DNA from: Streptomyces sp. QL37
GTDB lineage: Bacteria; Actinomycetota; Actinomycetes; Streptomycetales; Streptomycetaceae
Length of the DNA stretch: 64,000 bases
Assembly (NCBI RefSeq): GCF_002941025.1
Contig: NZ_PTJS01000001.1
Location: 7,144,605 to 7,208,604, forward strand
Direction: 5' to 3'
Shown: piece by piece, positions 15,923-25,350 of the stretch
Position numbering within the stretch: position 1 is the stretch's first letter
How the letters are laid out: each line of letters starts with the position of its first letter
Position numbers and translations under genes: made by a program
The notes under the pieces: generated by a model
The model's database searches: none
The model's input: the letters and a program-made list of their open reading frames with translations, nothing else
Told to the model about the DNA's origin: nothing

Positions 15923-16564
15923 TCAGCCGGCCGGCATCAGGACGGTGTCCACGATGTAGACCGTCGCGTTGGCGGTCGGGACGTTGCCGCAGACCACCTT
16001 CGAGGAGTCGTTCACCGTGTAGGACATCTCCGATCCCGACGTCGTCAGCTTCGTCTTCGCCAGGGTGTCGAAGGAGCCCTTCTCCAGCTGCTTCGGCGTC
16101 AGCTTCTCTCCGACCACGTGCGAGGTGAGCACCTTGGTCAGTTCCGCCTTGTTCGCCAGCAGCTTGTCCAGGTCCGCCTTCGGGATCTTGGCGAAGGCGT
16201 CGTTGGTCGGGGCGAACACCGTGATGTTCTCGGCGCTGTTCAGGGTGTCGACGAGACCGGCCTGCTTGACCGCCGTCACCAGGGTGGACAGCGCCGGGTT
16301 GTTCGACGCGGCCGTGGCGACCGGGTCCTGCGCCATGCCGTCGAACGAACCGGCGCCCTCCTTCGGGACCGAGGCGCAGCCCGGGCCGAACGGCTCGTCC
16401 ATGGGCGCGGTCTCCTTGGCCGGCGCGCTCGACGCGGCCTTGTCCGCACCGGAGTCGGAGCCGGACGCGGAGGTGTCGTCGCCGGAGCAGGCGGTCAGCG
16501 CGAGCGGCAGCACGGCCGCGGCGGAGACGGTGAGGGCGATGCGGCGAAGGTGACGGTTGTTCAT
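15923..16564 (-). CDS. Fasciclin-domain lipoprotein (MPT83/MPT70-like)
   Basis: A 213-residue cell-surface lipoprotein. The signal peptide ends at the lipobox LTAC with Cys26; a low-complexity S/A/D linker leads to one FAS1 domain (about residues 75-213) with the FAS1 H1 and H2 boxes NITVFAPTNDAFAKI and VYIVDTVLMP. In mycobacteria, proteins of this kind (MPT70, MPT83) are the main targets of SigK. Here it lies 61 bases after the molybdopterin oxidoreductase with no promoter of its own visible, so it should be the second gene of a SigK-type transcript. Its molecular function is unknown; FAS1 domains usually mediate adhesion. Confidence 0.92.
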   Translation of the reverse strand: MNNRHLRRIALTVSAAAVLPLALTACSGDDTSASGSDSGADKAASSAPAKETAPMDEPFGPGCASVPKEGAGSFDGMAQDPVATAASNNPALSTLVTAVKQAGLVDTLNSAENITVFAPTNDAFAKIPKADLDKLLANKAELTKVLTSHVVGEKLTPKQLEKGSFDTLAKTKLTTSGSEMSYTVNDSSKVVCGNVPTANATVYIVDTVLMPAG

Positions 16565-16625
16565 GGTGTTCTCCTAGGTGGTTCGTTGATCAAGGGTGGG
16601 GAAAGGGGGGAGGGGCACTCGGTCG

Positions 16626-18257
16626 TCAGGGCACGTCGACCACCACCGAGTGCCACCCGGTCGCACCGTCGGGCACGGTGCCGACCCGTGTGTCGGTCTG
16701 GGTGGCGCCGGTGCGGTCCGTCGCGCGGACCTCGAGGGTGTGGTGGCCGGTCGTGGCCGGCCACTCCCACACCCACTGGCGCCAGGTGTCACGGCCGGCC
16801 TCCGCCGCCAGCCGCGCGGTGTGCCACTCCCCGCCGTCGACCCGCACCTCGACCCGGGCGATGCCCCGGTGCTGGGCCCAGGCGACACCGGCGACCGGCA
16901 CGGTCCCCGCCCCGGGGGCGGCGAAGGGGCGCGGCGTGTCGATACGGGACTGGGTCTTGACCGGAGCCTCGCGGGACCATTCGCGCTCGACCCAGTAGGC
17001 GTCGTACGCGTCGAACGTCGTCAGTTCGATGTCCCGGATCCACTTGCACGCCGAGACGTAGCCGTAGAGGCCGGGGACGACCATCCGGACCGGGAACCCG
17101 TGGTCGAACGGCAGCGGTTCGCCGTTCATGCCGACCGCGAGCAGTGCGTCACGGCCGTCCATGACCTCCTCGACCGGGGTCCCGATCGTCATCCCGTCCA
17201 CGGAGCGCGCCACGATCTGGTCAGCGGACCCGCCCTTCGACGGGGGCTTCACCCCGGCCTCGCGCAGCAGATCGGCCAGGCGTACGCCGATCCACCGGGC
17301 CGTGCCCACATAGGGACCGCCCACCTGGTTGGACACGCAGGTCAGCGTGATGTCCCGTTCCACGAGCTCGCGGTCCAGGAGGTCCTGGAAGCCGAGGGTG
17401 ACGGGTCGCGCCACCCCCTTGCCGTGGATCCGCAGCCGCCATGCGCCGGCGTCGACGCGCGGGACCACCAGAGCGGTGTCCACCCGGTAGAAGTCCTTGT
17501 TCGGGGTGGTGAAGGAGCTCAGGCCCCGGACGCCGAGATCGGCTCCGGCGGGTATCGGGGGCGCCGCCGAGGCAGGTGCCGGGAGGGCGATGTCGCCGCG
17601 TGAGGCGGAGACCCCGGCCAGTTGGGATGCCTGGAGCCGTCGGCCCAGGAGCCCCGCACCGGCCGAGGCCGCCGCGGCGGTGGTCGCCGCGATCACGAAT
17701 CCGCGGCGGTCGAAGGCGCCTCGCGCCCCGCCGTCCGTCTCCCCAGCCGCGGGAGGCGGCGCGGTCTCCGGGACGCGCAGGCGTCCGGCCAGGAGATACA
17801 GCACTCCCGCGGCCACCAGCGCTCCCACGACCGAGGGCAGTGCGTCGCCCGGCCGGCCCTCCGGCCGGCCGGCCGCGGACACCGCCCCGACCACACCGAA
17901 GACCAGGACGGCCGCAGCGCCCGTCCACCGGTGCCGCAGCGCGAGGACCCCCACCGCCATGGCGAAGACCGCCAGGAGGACGAGGATCCCGAGCCGCAGC
18001 ACCAGCTTGTCGTCGGTGCCGAAGTTCCGTACGGCGAAGTCCTTGACGGCCGGGGGAGTGCGATCGATGACCGCCCCGCCCACGGCCGTGACCGGACCCG
18101 CCTCGGGACGCACGGCGGCGGCGACGAGTTCGGCGACGCACAGGGCGGTGAACCCGGCGATCAGACCGCTGAGCGCGGCGAACGCGGCGCGTGCCCAGCG
18201 GGAACGCCGGGACCCGGGAGCCCCCTGCTTCTGCGAAACATCTCGGTCTGTTCTCAC
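16626..18257 (-). CDS. Membrane-anchored molybdopterin-dependent oxidoreductase (sulfite-oxidase fold)
   Basis: A 543-residue protein with about four membrane helices in the first 165 residues, then DRRGFVIAATTAAAASAG (residues 183-200), a twin-arginine-like segment and additional hydrophobic stretch, and finally a sulfite-oxidase-type catalytic domain facing outward. The Mo-ligating cysteine is in ITLTCVSNQVGG (Cys307), and VVPGLYGYVSACKWI and a C-terminal Ig-like dimerisation domain follow. No haem-binding domain is present, so the electron acceptor is separate. The GTG start at 18257 coincides with the predicted start point of a SigK-type promoter (18265-18292), suggesting a leaderless message. 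The substrate is unknown; methionine sulfoxide or sulfite are family precedents. Confidence 0.9.
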   Translation of the reverse strand: MRTDRDVSQKQGAPGSRRSRWARAAFAALSGLIAGFTALCVAELVAAAVRPEAGPVTAVGGAVIDRTPPAVKDFAVRNFGTDDKLVLRLGILVLLAVFAMAVGVLALRHRWTGAAAVLVFGVVGAVSAAGRPEGRPGDALPSVVGALVAAGVLYLLAGRLRVPETAPPPAAGETDGGARGAFDRRGFVIAATTAAAASAGAGLLGRRLQASQLAGVSASRGDIALPAPASAAPPIPAGADLGVRGLSSFTTPNKDFYRVDTALVVPRVDAGAWRLRIHGKGVARPVTLGFQDLLDRELVERDITLTCVSNQVGGPYVGTARWIGVRLADLLREAGVKPPSKGGSADQIVARSVDGMTIGTPVEEVMDGRDALLAVGMNGEPLPFDHGFPVRMVVPGLYGYVSACKWIRDIELTTFDAYDAYWVEREWSREAPVKTQSRIDTPRPFAAPGAGTVPVAGVAWAQHRGIARVEVRVDGGEWHTARLAAEAGRDTWRQWVWEWPATTGHHTLEVRATDRTGATQTDTRVGTVPDGATGWHSVVVDVP

Positions 18258-18264
18258 ACCGGGG

Positions 18265-18292
18265 GTTCGGCGCGGACCGCCCGGCGGATTGG
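18265..18292 (-). promoter_or_regulatory. SigK-type promoter of the molybdopterin oxidoreductase-fasciclin unit
   Basis: On the minus strand CCAATCC (18292-18286) and CCGAAC (18270-18265) are separated by exactly 15 bases. The predicted start point falls at or next to the GTG at 18257. The same two boxes with the same spacing occur at 18327-18354 and 25323-25350. Confidence 0.75.
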
Positions 18293-18326
18293 TCGTTCAC
18301 CCGATCGAAGTAATTCCGATCATCGG

Positions 18327-18354
18327 CCAATCCATGGCGCTCGCTGCCCCGAAT
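18327..18354 (+). promoter_or_regulatory. SigK-type promoter of the lipid-modification operon
   Basis: CCAATCC (18327-18333), 15 bases, then CCGAAT (18349-18354). Transcription would begin near 18361, leaving a leader of about 55 bases before the ATG at 18416. This promoter argues against an alternative in-frame ATG at 18353, which would lie within the -10 box. Confidence 0.75.
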
Positions 18355-18415
18355 GACCTCTGAGGGGCACTCAAGCAGCGCCCCGGCCAGGCACGCGACA
18401 CCGGAAGGAACCCGA

Positions 18416-19687
18416 ATGGCAGGGGAGCGGCGGCGTACAGCCGTAGTGGGCGGCGGGGTGGCGGGGCTGACCGCCGCGCACGTCCTGGGGAGGGCGCACG
18501 ACGTGACACTCCTGGAGGCGGACGAACGCGTCGGCGGGCACGCGCACACCCATGACCTCAGCTCGTCGGACGGCCGGACACACCGCGTCGACTCGGGGTT
18601 CATCGTGCATAACCGGCGGACCTACCCGAACCTCCTGCGGCTCTTCGACGAACTCGGAGTGGCCACGCAGGAGTCGGAGATGAGCATGTCCGTACGGTGC
18701 GAGGGGTGCGGGCTGGAGTACGCGGGCGCACGCGGCGCCACCGGCCTGTTCGCCCGGCCCGGGTCCCTACTCCGCGGCCCGTACCTGCGGATGCTGACCG
18801 AGGTGCCCCGCTTCCACCGGGCCGCCAGGGCGTTGCTCGCCATGCCCGAAGGCACGGGGACCATGACACTGGGCGAGTTCGCGGCGCGCGGCCGGTTCTC
18901 CGCCTACTTCCGCGCGCACTTCCTGACGCCGATGGTCTCAGCCGTGTGGTCCTGCGACCCGGTGACCGCGATGCGCTACCCGGCCCGCCACCTCTTCAGG
19001 TTCCTGGAACACCACGGGATGCTCAGGATCGGCGACTCCCCGGTCTGGCGGACCGTCACCGGCGGATCGCGCGAGTACGTCGACCGCATCGCCGAGCAGG
19101 TGCGCTCCGTGCGCACGTCCACGCCGGTCCGCACGGTGCGGCGGCTCGGCCGAGGCGTGGAGATCGTCACCGAGGACGGGACCACCGAGGAGTACGACGC
19201 GGTCGTCGTCGCCACCCACCCCGACCAGGCGCTCCGGCTGCTCGCCGACCCCACCGACGAGGAGCGGCGCACCCTCGGGGCCTTCCGCTACTCCCGCAAC
19301 CCCACACTGCTGCACACCGACACCGCACTGCTCCCGCGCAGCCGGGGGGCCGCCGCGTCCTGGAACTACCTGATGCCCTCCTGCGCCGCCGACGCCGACC
19401 GGGTCACCGTCAGCTACGACATGAACCGGCTCCAGCGGCTGGACGCGCCAGAGCGGTTCGTCGTCACCCTGAACGGCGCCGAACGGGTCGACCCGGACCT
19501 CGTCCGGGGCCGCATGGTCTACGAACACCCCGTCTTCACCCCGGAGTCGGTCGCCGCGCAGGGGCGACTGCCGGGCCTGTCCGGGCCGGTCACCGCCTTC
19601 GCGGGGGCCTACCACGGCTGGGGATTCCACGAGGACGGCTGCCGGTCGGGTGTGCGGGCCGCCGAGGCGCTGGGCGTGACCTGGTGA
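18416..19687 (+). CDS. FAD-dependent oxidoreductase (amine-oxidase/desaturase-like)
   Basis: A 423-residue flavoprotein with the N-terminal dinucleotide fold VVGGGVAGLTAAHVL and the adjacent LLEADERVGGHAHTHD, typical of the flavin amine oxidase and phytoene-desaturase-like group. It is the counterpart of the first gene in the mycobacterial sigK-linked operon (Rv0449c type). GGAAGGA precedes the ATG at 18416. The stop overlaps the next start (GTGA), so the five genes from here to 23895 form one tightly coupled operon. A role in oxidising a membrane acyl chain fits the neighbours but is inference. Confidence 0.9.
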   Translation: MAGERRRTAVVGGGVAGLTAAHVLGRAHDVTLLEADERVGGHAHTHDLSSSDGRTHRVDSGFIVHNRRTYPNLLRLFDELGVATQESEMSMSVRCEGCGLEYAGARGATGLFARPGSLLRGPYLRMLTEVPRFHRAARALLAMPEGTGTMTLGEFAARGRFSAYFRAHFLTPMVSAVWSCDPVTAMRYPARHLFRFLEHHGMLRIGDSPVWRTVTGGSREYVDRIAEQVRSVRTSTPVRTVRRLGRGVEIVTEDGTTEEYDAVVVATHPDQALRLLADPTDEERRTLGAFRYSRNPTLLHTDTALLPRSRGAAASWNYLMPSCAADADRVTVSYDMNRLQRLDAPERFVVTLNGAERVDPDLVRGRMVYEHPVFTPESVAAQGRLPGLSGPVTAFAGAYHGWGFHEDGCRSGVRAAEALGVTW

Positions 19688-20406
19688 ACGCCCTCTACCC
19701 CTGCACCATCACCCACGTACGGACCGCGCCCCGCAGACACGCCCTGCGGCACCGCACCTATCTCTGGCTCATCGACCCGGACCGCCCGCCGCGGCTGCCC
19801 GCCGTGCTGCGTCCGCTGGCCCGCTTCGACGCCCGGGACCACTTCGGAGGCACCGCCCCCACCGTCCGGGCCGGGCTCGAACGGTTCCTCCGGGCCCGGG
19901 GCGTCGACCTCGCCGGCGGAAGCGTCACCATGCTCACCCAGGCCCGCGTCCTCGGCCACGTGTTCAATCCGCTGACCGTCTACTGGTGCCACCGTCCCGA
20001 CGGCACCCCGCTCTGCGTCGTCGCGGAGGTGCACAACACCTACGGGGAGCGGCACAGCTACCTGCTGCGGACCGACGCGGCGGGGCGGGCGGTGACCGGC
20101 AAGGACTTCTACGTCTCGCCGTTCTTCCCCGTGGACGGCGACTACCGGATGCGGCTCCCGGAGCCCGGCCCCCGGCTGAACCTGACGGTCCACCTGGAGC
20201 GCGCGGAGTCACGCCCGTTCACCGCGACCGTACGCGGCGCCCGGCGTCCCGGCACCCCCGCCCAGCTGGTCCGGCTCTTCCTGCGCCACCCCTTCTCCAC
20301 CGCGGTGGTCTCCGCCGCCATCCGGCTGCACGGCATCCGGCTCCTCCTGCGCCGGCTTCCCGTGCAGCCACGTCCCCGTCATCACACCCAGGAAGGCATG
20401 CGGTGA
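19684..20406 (+). CDS. DUF1365 family protein
   Basis: A 240-residue protein of the DUF1365 family with the conserved blocks HVFNPLTVYWC, EVHNTYGERHSYLL and FYVSPFFPVDGDYRM. No enzyme activity is established. Across bacteria the family is found beside a flavin oxidoreductase and a cyclopropane-fatty-acid-type methyltransferase, as here. The GTG at 19684 overlaps the previous stop by four bases, and its own TGA overlaps the next GTG. Confidence 0.9.
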   Translation: MNALYPCTITHVRTAPRRHALRHRTYLWLIDPDRPPRLPAVLRPLARFDARDHFGGTAPTVRAGLERFLRARGVDLAGGSVTMLTQARVLGHVFNPLTVYWCHRPDGTPLCVVAEVHNTYGERHSYLLRTDAAGRAVTGKDFYVSPFFPVDGDYRMRLPEPGPRLNLTVHLERAESRPFTATVRGARRPGTPAQLVRLFLRHPFSTAVVSAAIRLHGIRLLLRRLPVQPRPRHHTQEGMR

Positions 20407-21734
20407 AGGTGCCCACCTCCCCTCTGTCACCCCGTCCCCCCGCCCCGGCCGGCCTCGGCATCCCGGCTCAGACCGGCCCCGGCACCGCCCCCGGTGCCGG
20501 AGTCGATGCCGGAGTCGATGCCGGGCGCTGGCCCGACGTGGCCTCCCCGCCACGGGCCTCCGGGGTGAGGACCGCCGTGGCGGAGCGGCTGGTACGCCAC
20601 GCGCTCGCCCGGCTCCCGCTGCGCGTCCGGATCGCCGGCACCGGCAGTACCGGGCTGGGCGGGCCCCTCATGGAGATCCGCGAACCCGACGCCTTCTTCC
20701 GGCGGATCGGAGCGAGCGGACTCATCGGCTTCGGCGAGTCCTACATGGCGGGCGAGTGGGACTCTCCCGACCTCGTCGGCGTCCTCACGGTCCTCGCGGG
20801 GAACGTGGCCGGCCTCGTACCGGCGCCCCTGCAGAAGCTGCGGAGGGTGTGGGCCCTACGGCAGCCCCCCGCCCAGGCCAACACCCCCGAGGGGGCCCGC
20901 GACAACATCAGCCACCACTACGACTTGTCGAACGACCTCTTCGCCCTCTTCCTCGACGACACACTCACGTACTCCGCCGCCTTCTTCCGCGGATTCCCCG
21001 CCGAGCAGGATCTGCTGTCCGCCGCCCAGCACCGCAAGATCGACCGGCTGCTGGACCTGGCCGGCGTGCGCGACGGGACCGAACTGCTGGAGATCGGCAC
21101 CGGCTGGGGCGAACTCGCCGTACGGGCGGCCGCGCGAGGAGCCCGGGTCACCACGCTCACCCTCTCCCGGGAACAGCAGGAGCTGGCCCGGGGCCGCATC
21201 AGGGAAGCGGGCCACCGGGACCGGGTCGACGTACGGCTCAGCGACTACCGGGACGTCACCGGCGAGTACGACGCGGTCGTCAGCGTCGAGATGATCGAGG
21301 CGGTCGGGGAGGAGTTCTGGCCGGAGTACTTCCGGACCCTGGACCGCTGCCTGGCCCCCGGCGGGAAGATCGCGCTCCAGGCGATCACGATGCCGGACGA
21401 CCGGATGCTGGCCAGCCGCAGCACCTACACCTGGATCCAGAAGTACATCTTCCCCGGCGGACTGCTGCCCTCCACCGAGGCGATGGAGCGCGTCACCGCC
21501 GGCCACACCTCCCTGCGGACGGTGCGGCGCGACGGCTTCGGCTCCCACTACGCCGAGACCCTGAGGCTGTGGCGGGAACGCTTCACGGAACGGGCCGCGC
21601 AGGTCGACGCGCTCGGCTTCGACGCGACCTTCCGCCGTATGTGGACCTTCTACCTCGCCTACTCCGAGGCCGGCTTCCGGTCCGGCTATCTCGACGTGCA
21701 GCAGATTCTCCTGACCCGTGAGGACACCGCGTGA
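20403..21734 (+). CDS. Cyclopropane-fatty-acid synthase family methyltransferase (first copy)
   Basis: A 443-residue SAM-dependent enzyme that would transfer a methylene or methyl group to an unsaturated phospholipid acyl chain. The first 55 residues are low complexity with the short repeat AGVDAGVDAG. A lipid-binding N-domain includes FGESYMAGEWDSPDL. The catalytic domain has ISHHYDLSNDLFALFLD, the SAM loop LEIGTGWGELAV and EMIEAVGEEFWPEYF. It resembles mycobacterial UfaA1 by neighbourhood. Whether it makes cyclopropane, methyl-branched or furan precursor lipids cannot be seen from sequence. Confidence 0.9.
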   Translation: MKVPTSPLSPRPPAPAGLGIPAQTGPGTAPGAGVDAGVDAGRWPDVASPPRASGVRTAVAERLVRHALARLPLRVRIAGTGSTGLGGPLMEIREPDAFFRRIGASGLIGFGESYMAGEWDSPDLVGVLTVLAGNVAGLVPAPLQKLRRVWALRQPPAQANTPEGARDNISHHYDLSNDLFALFLDDTLTYSAAFFRGFPAEQDLLSAAQHRKIDRLLDLAGVRDGTELLEIGTGWGELAVRAAARGARVTTLTLSREQQELARGRIREAGHRDRVDVRLSDYRDVTGEYDAVVSVEMIEAVGEEFWPEYFRTLDRCLAPGGKIALQAITMPDDRMLASRSTYTWIQKYIFPGGLLPSTEAMERVTAGHTSLRTVRRDGFGSHYAETLRLWRERFTERAAQVDALGFDATFRRMWTFYLAYSEAGFRSGYLDVQQILLTREDTA

Positions 21735-23095
21735 ACACCACGACCGACACCCCGGGGCGCGCTGCGCAGCGGATCGCGCCCGTCATCGAGCGGTGCCTGG
21801 GCGGCCCCCCGCCGGTCAGGATCAGGATGTGGGACGGCAGCGAGACCGGACCCCGGGACGCGCCCACGGTCCACGTGCGCTCGCGCAGGGCGCTGCGCCG
21901 GCTCCTGTGGCAGCCGGGCGAACTCGGTCTCGCCGAGGCCTACATCACCGGTGACATCGACATCGACGACGACCTGGCGGACGGGCTGCGCGCGCTGCGC
22001 CGCGCGCCGGGGGCGAACGGCCCGCGGCTGCCACGGCCCCGTGCCGCGGACCGTCTCCGGGCGGCCGGCACCGCCCTGCGGCTCGGTGCGATCGGGCCCC
22101 GCCCGCCGACACCCGCGGCCCGCGCGGGGCTCCGGGGCGCGCTGCACAGCAAGGCCCGCGACCGGGCCGCCATCAGCCACCACTACGACCTCTCCAACGC
22201 CTTCTACTCCCTGCTGCTCGACGAGACCATGGCCTACTCGTGCGGCTACTGGGCCAGTGACGCCCCCGGTTACGGGCCGGCCGACGCCCAGCGGGACAAG
22301 CTGGACCTGATCTGCCGCAAGCTCGGGCTGACGGCCGGCGCCCGGCTGCTCGACATCGGCTGCGGCTGGGGATCCCTGACGCTCCACGCGGCGGCGCGGC
22401 ACGGAGTCCGGGTCACCGCCGTCACTCTCGCCGCCGAGCAGGCGGCGTACGTACGCGGGCAGGTGGAGGCGCGCGGCCTGGAGGACCTCGTCGAGGTGCA
22501 CCGCTGCGACTACCGGGACGTCACCGGCCTGCCGGACTTCCGGGGCGGGTACGACGCCGTGTCCACCATCGAGATGGGGGAGCACGTCGGCGACGCCCAG
22601 TACCCGGCCTTCACCGCCCTGCTGCACTCCGTGCTCAGGCCCCGGGGACGCGCCCTGGTCCAGCAGATGTCCCGCGGCTCGACCGCTCCCGGCGGCGGGG
22701 CGTTCATCGAGGCGTACATCGCACCCGACATGCACATGCGCCCGCTCGGCGAGACCGTCGCCCTGCTGGAGGGCGCCGGACTCGAGGTCCGGGACGTCGA
22801 GTCGATGCGTGAGCACTACGTCCTCACCGTCCGGGCCTGGCACCGCACGCTGGAGGAGCGCTGGCCCGAGTTCGTGGCGCTGGTGGGTGAGGAGACCGCC
22901 CGGGTGTGGCGCCTCTATCTGGTGGGCGGTGCCCTCGCCTTCGAAGAACGGCGCATGGGCGTCGACCAGATCCTCTCGGTGCGTCCCGACGCGACCGGAT
23001 CGGCGGGCCCGGCGGCAACCCGGCACGGCTGGTGCGCGAGGACCGGCGACGCTCCCGGCGGACCGGCGGAAGCGGACCGGACGGCCACCCGGTGA
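21731..23095 (+). CDS. Cyclopropane-fatty-acid synthase family methyltransferase (second copy)
   Basis: A 454-residue paralogue of the upstream enzyme, clearly diverged: ISHHYDLSNAFYSLLLD, SAM loop LDIGCGWGSLTLHAA, and STIEMGEHVGDAQYPAF. The N-domain has LGLAEAYITGDIDIDDDL. The C-terminal 30 residues after DQILSV are low complexity. The GTG at 21731 overlaps the stop of the first copy. Two consecutive family members suggest two steps, or two positions, of acyl-chain modification. Confidence 0.9.
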   Translation: MNTTTDTPGRAAQRIAPVIERCLGGPPPVRIRMWDGSETGPRDAPTVHVRSRRALRRLLWQPGELGLAEAYITGDIDIDDDLADGLRALRRAPGANGPRLPRPRAADRLRAAGTALRLGAIGPRPPTPAARAGLRGALHSKARDRAAISHHYDLSNAFYSLLLDETMAYSCGYWASDAPGYGPADAQRDKLDLICRKLGLTAGARLLDIGCGWGSLTLHAAARHGVRVTAVTLAAEQAAYVRGQVEARGLEDLVEVHRCDYRDVTGLPDFRGGYDAVSTIEMGEHVGDAQYPAFTALLHSVLRPRGRALVQQMSRGSTAPGGGAFIEAYIAPDMHMRPLGETVALLEGAGLEVRDVESMREHYVLTVRAWHRTLEERWPEFVALVGEETARVWRLYLVGGALAFEERRMGVDQILSVRPDATGSAGPAATRHGWCARTGDAPGGPAEADRTATR

Positions 23096-23895
23096 GCGGG
23101 TTCGGATGGGCGGAGTTCGCCCGGGGCCTGCCGGTGGCGGCGGGCGCCGCCCTCGCCGTCATGCTCGTGACGTTCCTGATCGCCCTGCGCAAGGGCGTGC
23201 ACCGGATCGTCGACGTGGCATGGGGACTCGGGTTCGCCGCCGTCGCCCTCGTCCCGTACGCGATGCCCTCCGGTGACGGCGACGGGGGGCGCCGCGCCCT
23301 GGCGGCCGTGCTCACCGTCGTCTGGGGTCTGCGGCTGGCCGTCCACATCGGCCGGCGCGGCCGGGGCCACGGCGAGGACCCGCGCTACGAGGCCATGCTC
23401 GCCAAGGCGCCGGGCAACCCCGATCTGTACGCCCTGCGCACGGTGTACCTCCTCCAGGGCGCCCTCGTCTGGCTGATCTCCCTGCCGGTACAGGCGGCCG
23501 GCCACCTCACGGGACCGCTCGACGCGTGGTCGTGGGCAGGCACCGCGCTGTGGGCGCTGGGGCTCGGCTTCGAAGCGGTGGGGGACGCCCAACTGGCGCG
23601 CTTCAAGGCCGATCCCGCCAACAAGGGGCGGATCATGGACCGGGGCCTGTGGTCCTGGACCCGCCACCCCAACTACTTCGGGGACTTCTGCGTCTGGTGG
23701 GGTCTGTTCCTCATCGTCTGCTCGAACCCGGCGGTCGCCGCGGCGACCCTCGTCTCGCCCGTCGTCATGAGCCTCCTGCTGACCAGAGGCAGCGGAAAGG
23801 CGCTCCTGGAGCGGCACATGGCCGGACGCCCGGGGTTCGCGGAGTACCGGGCCCGCACCAGCGGCTTCTTCCCGCGCCCGCCCCGCCGGCCCTGA
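23092..23895 (+). CDS. DUF1295 membrane protein (steroid-5-alpha-reductase/ICMT fold)
   Basis: A 267-residue multi-pass membrane protein. The C-terminal motif WSWTRHPNYFGDFCVWWG is the cofactor-binding signature shared by DUF1295, steroid 5-alpha reductases and isoprenylcysteine methyltransferases. The GTG at 23092 overlaps the previous stop. As the last gene of the operon it could reduce or otherwise finish the modified lipid. The homologous position in mycobacteria is taken by Rv0446c. The operon ends at the hairpin 23904-23939. Confidence 0.88.
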   Translation: MSGFGWAEFARGLPVAAGAALAVMLVTFLIALRKGVHRIVDVAWGLGFAAVALVPYAMPSGDGDGGRRALAAVLTVVWGLRLAVHIGRRGRGHGEDPRYEAMLAKAPGNPDLYALRTVYLLQGALVWLISLPVQAAGHLTGPLDAWSWAGTALWALGLGFEAVGDAQLARFKADPANKGRIMDRGLWSWTRHPNYFGDFCVWWGLFLIVCSNPAVAAATLVSPVVMSLLLTRGSGKALLERHMAGRPGFAEYRARTSGFFPRPPRRP

Positions 23896-23903
23896 GACGG
23901 AGA

Positions 23904-23939
23904 AGTGGGCGTGCCCCCCGGCAAGGGGGCGCGCCCACT
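23904..23939. terminator. Bidirectional terminator between the lipid operon and rskA
   Basis: A 15-bp stem (23904-23918 with 23925-23939) with one wobble pair and a six-base loop, between convergent transcripts. Confidence 0.85.
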
Positions 23940-23944
23940 CGGGC

Positions 23945-24700
23945 TCAGGCGTCCCGGAACTCCATCAGGGCCACGGGGGCCGAGGTCGGCTGTTCGGATC
24001 CGCCCGCCGGTTCGACGGTGATGCCCATGCCGGACGCGCGGTCCACCGGGCCGTCCAGCAGAACGGCGTCATCGGTGGCGGACGGGTTCATCAGGCCGGC
24101 GGCACGCATGGTGCCGCCTTCGTCGAACCACAGCTGGTACACCTTGCCGCCGGGCGGCCGTGCCATGTCCGACGCGAGGAACACCGCCCGGTTCACACTC
24201 CGCGAGACGACCACCGTGCCCCGGGCGCCGTCCCCGAGATCCGCGGCGCTGGTCCTGGCGTCCGGTGCGGTCAGCACCCGCGCCACCTGCTCGTTGTGCT
24301 GTTCGGCCCGGGCGGCCTCCTGCCGGGCGTCCCGCGCGACCTGGTTCTGCCACACGGCGACCCCGCCGAAGGCGGCAGCGGCGGCCACACAGGCGGCGAG
24401 CGCGTACACCGACCAGCGGCGGGCCCGGCCGGGGGAGACCCCGGAGCCGGCACTCCGGCCCCGGGGCGGAGGCTCCTGCCGTACGGTCGTGATGTCGCGC
24501 AGCACCCGGTCCCGGAGCCCCGGGGGCGGGGTGGCGGACACGGCGAGCCCGAGCCGGGCGGCGGTGGCGGAGAGCTCCCTTACCTCCTGGGCGCACGCCT
24601 CGCAGGCACCCAGATGCCGTTCGAACGCGACGCGCTCCTCGTCCGGCAGCGCGTGCAGGGCATAGGCCCCGGTCAGTGTGTGCAGCTCGGCCGTGCTCAT
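23945..24700 (-). CDS. rskA: Anti-sigma factor, RskA type
   Basis: A 251-residue single-pass membrane anti-sigma factor. The cytoplasmic N-terminal anti-sigma domain contains HTLTGAYALHALPDEER and the zinc-binding-like HLGACEAC. A transmembrane helix (WSVYALAACVAAAAAFGGVAVW) lies around residues 95-116, and the extracytoplasmic part is an RskA domain with KVYQLWFDEGG. The start overlaps the sigma gene by four bases. Regulated proteolysis after an envelope signal should release the sigma factor. Confidence 0.93.
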   Translation of the reverse strand: MSTAELHTLTGAYALHALPDEERVAFERHLGACEACAQEVRELSATAARLGLAVSATPPPGLRDRVLRDITTVRQEPPPRGRSAGSGVSPGRARRWSVYALAACVAAAAAFGGVAVWQNQVARDARQEAARAEQHNEQVARVLTAPDARTSAADLGDGARGTVVVSRSVNRAVFLASDMARPPGGKVYQLWFDEGGTMRAAGLMNPSATDDAVLLDGPVDRASGMGITVEPAGGSEQPTSAPVALMEFRDA

Positions 24701-25281
24701 GCGTTCACCCCCAGGCAGTCACGCAGCCGGATGAGCCCGTCGCGCAGCCGTGTCTTGACGGTTCCCAGTGGTACGGACAGCAGCTCGCCGACCTCGCGGT
24801 AGGTCAGTCCGCGGTAGTACGCCAGCGTCACCGACTCCCGCTGGAGCTCGGAGAGCGTCCGCATACAGCGCCGGACCTGCTCCCTCTCCAGCCGGCTCTC
24901 GACCTGCTCGGACACCTCGTCGAACTCCGGGGTGCGGTCGAGCAGCGCCGCCTTGTGCTCCCGTGCCGCGGTCGCCTCGGCCGATCTCACCCGGTCCACC
25001 GCGCGGTGGTGGGCGAGTGTCAGCACCCAGTTCATGGCGCTGCCGCGGGTCGCCTGGTAGCGGGGGGCGGTGCGCCACACCTCGACCAGGACCTCCTGGG
25101 CCACCTCCTCCGACTGGGCCGGGTCGCGGAGCACGCTCCGCACCAGGCCGAGGACCGGCCCGCTGACCTGGTCGTACACCTGGGCGAATGCGGCCTGGTC
25201 GCCACGGGCGACCTGGCCGATCAGTTCCTGCAGGCCGGGGCCCGACGAGGGGACCCCACTGATGTGTACGGCTTCTCTCAC
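24697..25281 (-). CDS. sigK: ECF RNA polymerase sigma factor, SigK type
   Basis: A 194-residue extracytoplasmic-function sigma factor. Region 2 spans about residues 30-100 (DPAQSEEVAQEVLVEVWRTAPRY cannot be longer here), and region 4 about 135-190 (YYRGLTYREVGELLSVPLGT). The pairing with an RskA-type anti-sigma, the convergent lipid operon and the nearby fasciclin gene all match the mycobacterial sigK locus. It has a promoter of the same type as the two target units (25323-25350), so it should be autoregulated. GTG at 25281 follows GGGAGGA. Confidence 0.92.
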   Translation of the reverse strand: MREAVHISGVPSSGPGLQELIGQVARGDQAAFAQVYDQVSGPVLGLVRSVLRDPAQSEEVAQEVLVEVWRTAPRYQATRGSAMNWVLTLAHHRAVDRVRSAEATAAREHKAALLDRTPEFDEVSEQVESRLEREQVRRCMRTLSELQRESVTLAYYRGLTYREVGELLSVPLGTVKTRLRDGLIRLRDCLGVNA

Positions 25282-25322
25282 GCGGACGGTCCTCCCGGAG
25301 CACGCAACGGTTTCCTGGGGTG

Positions 25323-25350
25323 ATTCGGAGCCGACGGCCCGGAGGATTGG
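25323..25350 (-). promoter_or_regulatory. SigK-type autoregulatory promoter of sigK-rskA
   Basis: On the minus strand CCAATCC (25350-25344), 15 bases, CCGAAT (25328-25323). The start point would be near 25316 with a leader of about 35 bases. It begins ten bases from the stop of the ABA4-like gene. Confidence 0.78.

Follow-up and report, generated by a model that had tools for sequence, protein, structure and literature searches.

Streptomyces sp. QL37 carries a gene pair encoding a SigK-type extracytoplasmic function (ECF) sigma factor and its anti-sigma factor RskA beside a five-gene lipid operon and a unit formed by a molybdoenzyme gene (moco) and a fasciclin lipoprotein gene, and the question raised by this locus is whether one sigma factor reads all these genes and to what kind of stress it would respond. 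In the 64,000-nucleotide stretch analyzed here (contig NZ_PTJS01000001.1, positions 7,144,605 to 7,208,604; hereafter the window), a search with the pattern CCAATCC-N(14-16)-CCGAAY returned three matches, all with a 15-base spacer, where 0.01 were expected from 100 shuffles. These matches precede the moco–fasciclin unit (18265-18292, minus strand), the lipid operon (18327-18354, plus strand) and sigK–rskA (25323-25350, minus strand, CCAATCC-N15-CCGAAT), which bears out the initial annotation of the locus, where three copies with identical spacing and no further copy in the window had been reported. With a probability of about 0.88, all three act as promoters for a single ECF sigma factor, SigK; this factor would be kept inactive by RskA, an anti-sigma factor that crosses the membrane once, and its targets would include its own operon, the lipid operon, the moco–fasciclin unit and a distant hydrolase gene.

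Across the whole genome (8,783,195 bases in five contigs), the exact motif is found only at these three window sites, with none scattered outside the block, while the reversed pattern gives 0 matches. Extrapolation of the shuffle rate to the genome yields about one chance site, and the count of three by itself is unremarkable at this scale; for that reason, the telling point is that the sites are grouped within a single block, all in front of the expected genes. When one mismatch is allowed, 10 sites are found in the genome versus 6 for the reversed control and, thus, most of the one-mismatch sites are to be regarded as chance. The boxes may also resemble those of mycobacterial SigK (CCATCC and CCGAAT), as the initial annotation had proposed; in several other genera, CCCATCC-N15-CCGAAT precedes homologues of regulon genes.

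Conservation of these promoters was followed in loci chosen blind to the motif, by homology to the DUF1365 protein (UfaO) of the lipid operon. This set comprises the best 80 of 547 homologous loci and two plasmid loci, mostly from Streptomyces and close kin and, hence, not independent events. With no more than one mismatch tolerated, the motif is found upstream of ufaD, the first gene of the lipid operon, in 57 of 82 cases, upstream of sigK in 40 of 61 and upstream of moco in 29 of 36, whereas 300 permuted motifs searched in the same regions gave means of 0.02, 0.01 and 0.01, respectively, with a maximum of 1. The upstream regions of fasciclin genes carry the motif, again with at most one mismatch, less often (8/50; permuted mean 0.05, maximum 3), as would be expected if fasciclin genes commonly come second, after moco. 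As for exact sites of both −10 types described below (CCAATCC-N15-NCGRAY), 82 loci, the window included, hold 161, of which 153 stand before a gene with a homologue in the window block.

Across 295 genomes of the same genus, 466 motif matches stand against 17 for the reversed pattern (the latter counted by eye), which is nevertheless a weak control in GC-rich genomes, given that, out of 115 sites classified, 28 seem mostly due to chance. Of the 240 genomes whose SigK exceeds the cut-off, 212 contain the motif, versus 24 of the 55 without such a SigK (Fisher 1e-11, a nominal value only, as the genomes are related). The site classification covered 100 genus regions holding 112 of the sites listed plus the three of the window. 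The first downstream gene belongs to a repeated family at 87 of these 115 sites (29 anti-sigma-type, 23 DUF4331, 13 sigK, 12 moco, 5 fasciclin, 3 ufaD and 2 CHRD) and is a singleton at the other 28. The N15 spacing is found at 85 of the 87 family sites versus 14 of the 28 singleton sites; therefore, the singletons look largely chance, and the chance rate lies above the reversed-pattern estimate.

The geometry of the promoters is also conserved. In ECF promoters, transcription starts roughly 7–8 nt downstream of the −10 box, and the first possible start codon of moco lies 7 nt (26 sites) or 8 nt (three sites) past this box in all 29 exact-type sites, the window having a GTG at 7 nt. In the first classified set this distance is 7 nt in 10 of 12 cases, the other two having an earlier possible start at 1 nt. 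Since the start codon falls where ECF transcription would begin, the moco transcript would be leaderless. The first possible start of sigK is located 37–41 nt past the box in 10 of 13 sites (41 nt to the GTG in the window) and at 14, 26 and 27 nt in the rest, and 61 nt separate the box of the lipid operon from its ATG at 18416.

Moreover, the −10 box has changed jointly. One Streptomyces clade carries NCGGAT in place of NCGAAT (CGAAT to CGGAT), and the types agree within loci for ufaD/sigK (40/40), ufaD/moco (28/28), sigK/moco (25/25) and ufaD/fasciclin (8/8). Among 82 loci, 46 are of the A class, 28 of the G class and eight unclassed; in a tree of 75 rows, where the neighbors of the window's genome include S. 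clavifer and S. griseus, one −10 change suffices, and no exact GGA-type site is found in the genome of the window. In another genome (G095), the sigK promoter reads CCGGAT whereas the DUF4331 promoter beside a SigK paralogue still reads CCGAAT and, therefore, the change went with the SigK regulon and not with the genome. This joint change is best explained by one sigma factor reading all these promoters and, if true, would exemplify a set of promoters that, under a common sigma factor, altered their −10 box in concert. Covariation of SigK residues (e.g., 78, 81 and 83) with the −10 type is not claimed, since one switch amounts to one independent pair.

One of the seven one-mismatch sites of the genome (G000:C1:4117553-4117580, CCCATCC-N15-CCGAAT) is located about 46 nt before the likely start of an alpha/beta hydrolase gene, approximately 3 Mb from the block and outside the window, and is probably a real fourth promoter. 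Homologues of this hydrolase carry an exact site in genome G056 and the GGAT type expected for the clade in locus L321, while a homologue on a Rhodococcus plasmid adjoins ufaD and carries CCCATCC-N15-CCGAAT, and another (L241) is the final gene of a ufa operon. A site with at most one mismatch is found in 10 of the 27 hydrolase-homologue loci listed (L193 and L216 being one place), three of these having been found through the motif itself, and no reversed-control site below three mismatches occurs in the same 27 loci. The initial annotation had placed the whole response in one 10-kb block; three promoters are indeed there, but the probable fourth one means that the response is not wholly contained in it, and the claim is rejected in its strict sense.

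Beyond the genus, a site with at most one mismatch precedes a regulon homologue in 16 of the 37 SigK loci covered, which come from other genera throughout the phylum (permuted mean 0.01, maximum 1). Two of the loci (L219 and L234) show the single order ufaD–ufaO–CMAS–DUF1295–sigK–rskA, and in L209 moco, fasciclin, sigK and rskA stand in a row, the moco match starting 8 positions past the box.

The assignment of the sites to SigK is thus supported at the sequence level by the exact sites at the sigK, ufaD and moco–fasciclin promoters, by the conservation in motif-blind loci and by the joint −10 change, although several results weigh against it. Such a site is missing in 21 of the 37 SigK loci of other genera, 28 of the 240 genus genomes with a SigK over the cut-off have no exact motif, 24 of the 55 below it carry one, and some close relatives (L312 and L323) have SigK but lack, even with two mismatches allowed, a site before ufaD or sigK. 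In addition, the −10 box switched only once, and the perfect concordance therefore counts once and not 40 times. Lastly, in 20 further UfaO loci of other genera, where ufaD lies away from sigK, the motif occurs within 400 nt before ufaD in two of four loci of the same class and in none of 16 beyond, the eight other exact or one-mismatch sites being inside genes or far off. The ufaD, ufaO and CMAS/CFA homologues are nonetheless together in all 20 and, therefore, this gene unit appears older or more widespread than its wiring to SigK.

It could be argued that the matches do not act as promoters and are there by inheritance or by chance, as the loci share descent, the one-mismatch sites of this genome are near the control rate, and the 28 singleton sites of the genus precede unrelated genes. 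However, the permuted-motif controls (mean 0.02 or fewer for ufaD, sigK and moco), the conserved spacing at moco, the joint −10 change and the occurrence of sites, at other genome positions, in front of the same hydrolase family make this explanation exceedingly improbable, and a chance match in the window is rejected on the basis of the shuffles, the uniqueness in the genome and the permuted motifs. Another possibility is that the boxes serve a different ECF sigma factor, or several related ones, SigK being just one user. In the same genus, CCAATCC-N15-CCGAAT precedes DUF4331 secreted-protein genes mostly divergent from a second SigK–RskA-like pair (23 of the 115 sites; L094, L104 and 21 other loci), and the boxes also precede zf-HC2 anti-sigma-type genes (29 sites; L064, L102 and 27 other loci), with an ECF sigma gene about 0.7 kb upstream in L064. 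The motif is, therefore, not private to SigK, as paralogous sigma systems in relatives share it. Against a wider readership in the present strain stand the single SigK-like sigma factor of this genome at E ≤ 1e-30 and the lack of exact sites outside the block, while the contrast between the two promoters of G095 tells the systems apart there, and we regard this alternative as unlikely. Regarding the zf-HC2 genes, the first possible start lies 105–106 nt from the promoter in 21 of 29 loci. A CHRD-like secreted protein is also found under a like promoter (L068, L125 and L290), with a weak Pfam match in L068, where a sortase gene is next.

If SigK reads these promoters, an external signal or one arising within the membrane would cause RskA to let SigK go, presumably by proteolysis as in the literature on Mycobacterium tuberculosis. 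Free SigK would then transcribe its own operon as a feedback, the five-gene lipid operon, the molybdoenzyme–fasciclin unit as a leaderless mRNA and, as a likely fourth target, the alpha/beta hydrolase gene elsewhere in the genome. Less surely, the lipid operon would make methyl-branched and furan fatty acids, which could quench singlet oxygen or signal membrane oxidation, and such products would in turn point to a response to photo-oxidative or similar membrane stress.

This organization resembles the mycobacterial SigK–RskA regulon (mpt70, mpt83 and the Rv0449c operon) in the SigK and RskA families, the cysteine pair, the fasciclin lipoprotein target, the self-activation and the FAD–DUF1365–CMAS–DUF1295 genes, which we take to be the content of the Rv0449c operon. 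It differs from it in a second CMAS and in the molybdoenzyme encoded with the fasciclin gene. The molybdoenzyme, noted in the initial annotation as foreign to the classic mycobacterial regulon, is frequent in Streptomyces loci and is also present in some other genera. The mycobacterial unit includes dipZ, whereas no dipZ is found among the genes of the window block; an exact site lies just before a DipZ/CcdA-like start in one locus (L154:4001, by eye), where the reading frame is then seemingly lost. In mycobacteria, sigK lies behind the Rv0449c promoter according to the excerpted text of PMC7509140, in contrast to the window, where it has a promoter of its own. The same excerpt states that RskA binds and inhibits SigK and is cleaved by a membrane protease, that a cysteine pair affects binding, and that SigK sites are conserved among Actinobacteria, the SigKs of other species recognizing the mpt70 site. 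It also describes the signal that starts the SigK cascade as still unknown, a question that would become directly testable in Streptomyces if the target set were photo-oxidative. The regulon is a variant of the known SigK type, and the new value lies in its link to a furan-fatty-acid and singlet-oxygen module.

This link begins with the lipid operon. In Rhodobacter sphaeroides, UfaM, UfaD (with an NAD/FAD domain) and UfaO (DUF1365) turn cis-vaccenate into a furan fatty acid, UfaO performing the furan-forming step (excerpt of PMC7380195). Homologues of all three enzymes, i.e., a FAD desaturase, a DUF1365 protein and a methyltransferase, are encoded in one unit of the window in the order ufaD–ufaO–CMAS and, judged by homology, the operon is ufaD–ufaO–ufaM-like and would be a furan-fatty-acid gene set. 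Unlike the Rhodobacter set, which is proven, it has an extra CMAS and DUF1295 and a putative furan product. The identities given below were measured against homologues from Ensifer and Qingshengfaniella and not against the Rhodobacter proteins themselves. The Ensifer ufa cluster adjoins genes for an ECF sigma factor and ChrR, and on a Qingshengfaniella (Rhodobacterales) plasmid (L244) a fasciclin gene lies directly beside ChrR–sigma–ufaD–ufaO, which links fasciclin with furan genes in Proteobacteria too. In the part of PMC7074977 that tabulates the R. sphaeroides RpoE regulon, rpoE, chrR, cfaS (ufaM), the photolyase gene phrA, RSP_1091 (ufaD), RSP_1090 (ufaO) and a Beta-Ig-H3/fasciclin gene are listed with positive log2 changes under singlet oxygen.

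The SigK block and the RpoE–ChrR (ECF11) clusters of Rhodobacter, Ensifer and Qingshengfaniella share ufaD, ufaO, ufaM/cfa and fasciclin together with a sigma and an anti-sigma factor. They differ in the family of the anti-sigma factor and in the sigma factor itself, SigK being 27–31% identical to those of Ensifer and Qingshengfaniella, and the excerpted RpoE table (PMC7074977) contains no molybdoenzyme. RskA has no convincing match to ChrR (best E 0.047; ChrR model 20 bits versus a cut-off of 124.5) and, on the basis of this failure and of the low sigma identity, an assignment of SigK to ECF11 is rejected. Photolyase is a target of the Rhodobacter regulon and a neighbor in some relatives of the window block: within the flanks covered, photolyase genes occur at 20 of the 80 named loci chosen through ufaO, in 6 of the 100 regions of the genus and at 2 of the 40 SigK loci from the phylum, and no photolyase match is found in the window. 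A lycopene cyclase gene is present in locus L127. Outside the class, two loci (L365 and L366) have photolyase matches beside or near ufaD–ufaO–CFA, and no SigK-type site within one mismatch is found there.

We infer that the SigK regulon would respond to photo-oxidative stress or membrane oxidation and yield furan or related fatty acids, and SigK–RskA may be an actinobacterial photo-oxidative stress system. In its fullest and quite tentative form, this proposal, to which we would give somewhat less than even odds, holds that SigK–RskA is the actinobacterial counterpart of RpoE–ChrR, with two unrelated pairs governing the fasciclin and furan module, singlet oxygen or oxidized membrane lipid as the signal, and moco, an extracytoplasmic enzyme with a leaderless mRNA, as a repair arm in Streptomyces. 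A further guess, based on the fold of moco, is that it may repair or sense oxidized sulfur groups outside the cell. Opposed to the furan reading, which is drawn from homology, is the pathway of a mycobacterium, in which a FAD-binding oxidoreductase and a methyltransferase are necessary for 10-methyl stearic acid (excerpt of PMC5660069). Together with the presence of two cyclopropane-synthase-type CMAS enzymes in the operon, this pathway suggests that cyclopropane or 10-methyl (tuberculostearic-type) acids are made instead of furan, with the regulon answering envelope or redox stress in general. We consider this alternative possible but doubtful in view of the furan-forming role of DUF1365 in Rhodobacter, the grouping of ufaD, ufaO and the CMAS/CFA homologue in the 20 loci of other genera, and the two alphaproteobacterial ufa copies that adjoin a sigma–ChrR pair. 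Among the matches listed in the open-licence literature, no link between SigK and furan fatty acids was found in print. If the photo-oxidative reading of SigK–RskA is true, the fasciclin and DUF1365 families would acquire a common frame across two phyla, and the module would clearly exemplify the convergence of two distinct regulators on the same genes.

The gene families of the block were confirmed as SigK, RskA_C, fasciclin, a sulfite-oxidase-fold molybdoenzyme, amine oxidase/FAD, DUF1365, two CMAS and DUF1295. The ECF sigma factor gene sigK (24697..25281, minus strand) reaches 287 bits with NF007228 (cut-off 226), and its best PDB match is M. tuberculosis SigK (4nqw, E 3.7e-45); Cys139 and Cys189 align with cysteines of the latter and are both present in 63 of 63 aligned sequences, the window included. 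The anti-sigma factor gene rskA (23945..24700, minus strand) matches Pfam RskA_C (106 bits) and RskA_N, with one transmembrane segment predicted by hydropathy at residues 98–116. Its N-terminus HTLTGAYALHAL was set against the AS19-1 consensus HTLAGAYALDAL taken from the excerpt of PMC7406223, and phmmer found no match to PDB chains at E ≤ 0.001.

The lipid operon (18416-23895, plus strand) has a four-base overlap at each junction of its five genes. It comprises the ufaD-like FAD oxidoreductase (18416..19687; Pfam Amino_oxidase; 41% identical, across 423 aligned columns, to the Ensifer homologue encoded next to the ECF sigma–ChrR pair), the ufaO-like DUF1365 protein (19684..20406; PF07103, 231 bits; 35% identity to the Ensifer homologue), two CMAS methyltransferases (20403..21734 and 21731..23095; both PF02353) and, as its last gene, a DUF1295 membrane protein (23092..23895; PF06966). 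The first CMAS is the better candidate for ufaM, with 41% identity to the Ensifer CFA versus 32% for the second, and the ufa operons of L239 and L240 show no separate second CMAS in their gene listing. A predicted structure of the DUF1365 protein (mean predicted local distance difference test, pLDDT, 83) matched no PDB fold at E ≤ 0.001, and lipocalin-like barrels account for many of its weak hits.

On the minus strand, moco (16626..18257; PF00174, 149 bits) encodes a membrane-anchored protein that, by its sequence, belongs to the sulfite-oxidase fold family and has four predicted transmembrane segments and a twin-arginine stretch (from hydropathy and sequence). Its Cys307 aligns with a Cys of SorA (2blf) and is presumably the Mo ligand. 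An identity as SorA, SoxC, SorT or MsrP is not supported, as the protein remains below the NCBIfam equivalog cut-offs (120/600, 107/420, 86/570 and 44/207 bits, respectively). The MPT70/MPT83-like fasciclin lipoprotein (15923..16564, minus strand; PF02469; lipobox LTAC), whose residues 59 to 212 match MPT70 (1nyo, E 6.2e-34), is encoded behind moco, with the predicted promoter of the unit at 18265-18292. In three loci (L255, L258 and L323), a moco-type promoter is kept before short reading frames resembling moco remnants.

Finally, a conserved palindrome, TCAYYCGATCGRRTGA (18297..18312), lies 4 bp in front of the −35 box of moco. It is found within four mismatches at 39 of 49 moco sites (versus 2 in shuffled sequence), in 33 of the 39 at exactly 4 bp, whereas only 7 of 95 sigK promoters reach it within four mismatches, at scattered distances. 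The palindrome hints at a possible second regulator. The reversed control gave 0 matches but is weak, as this control contains CTAG, which is rare in such genomes. The genes near palindrome sites of the genus form a mixed set that indicates no regulator. In 15 genomes, 4–8 related sites per genome within one mismatch are found at other genes of the genus, e.g., near lipB–lipA-like genes (by eye).

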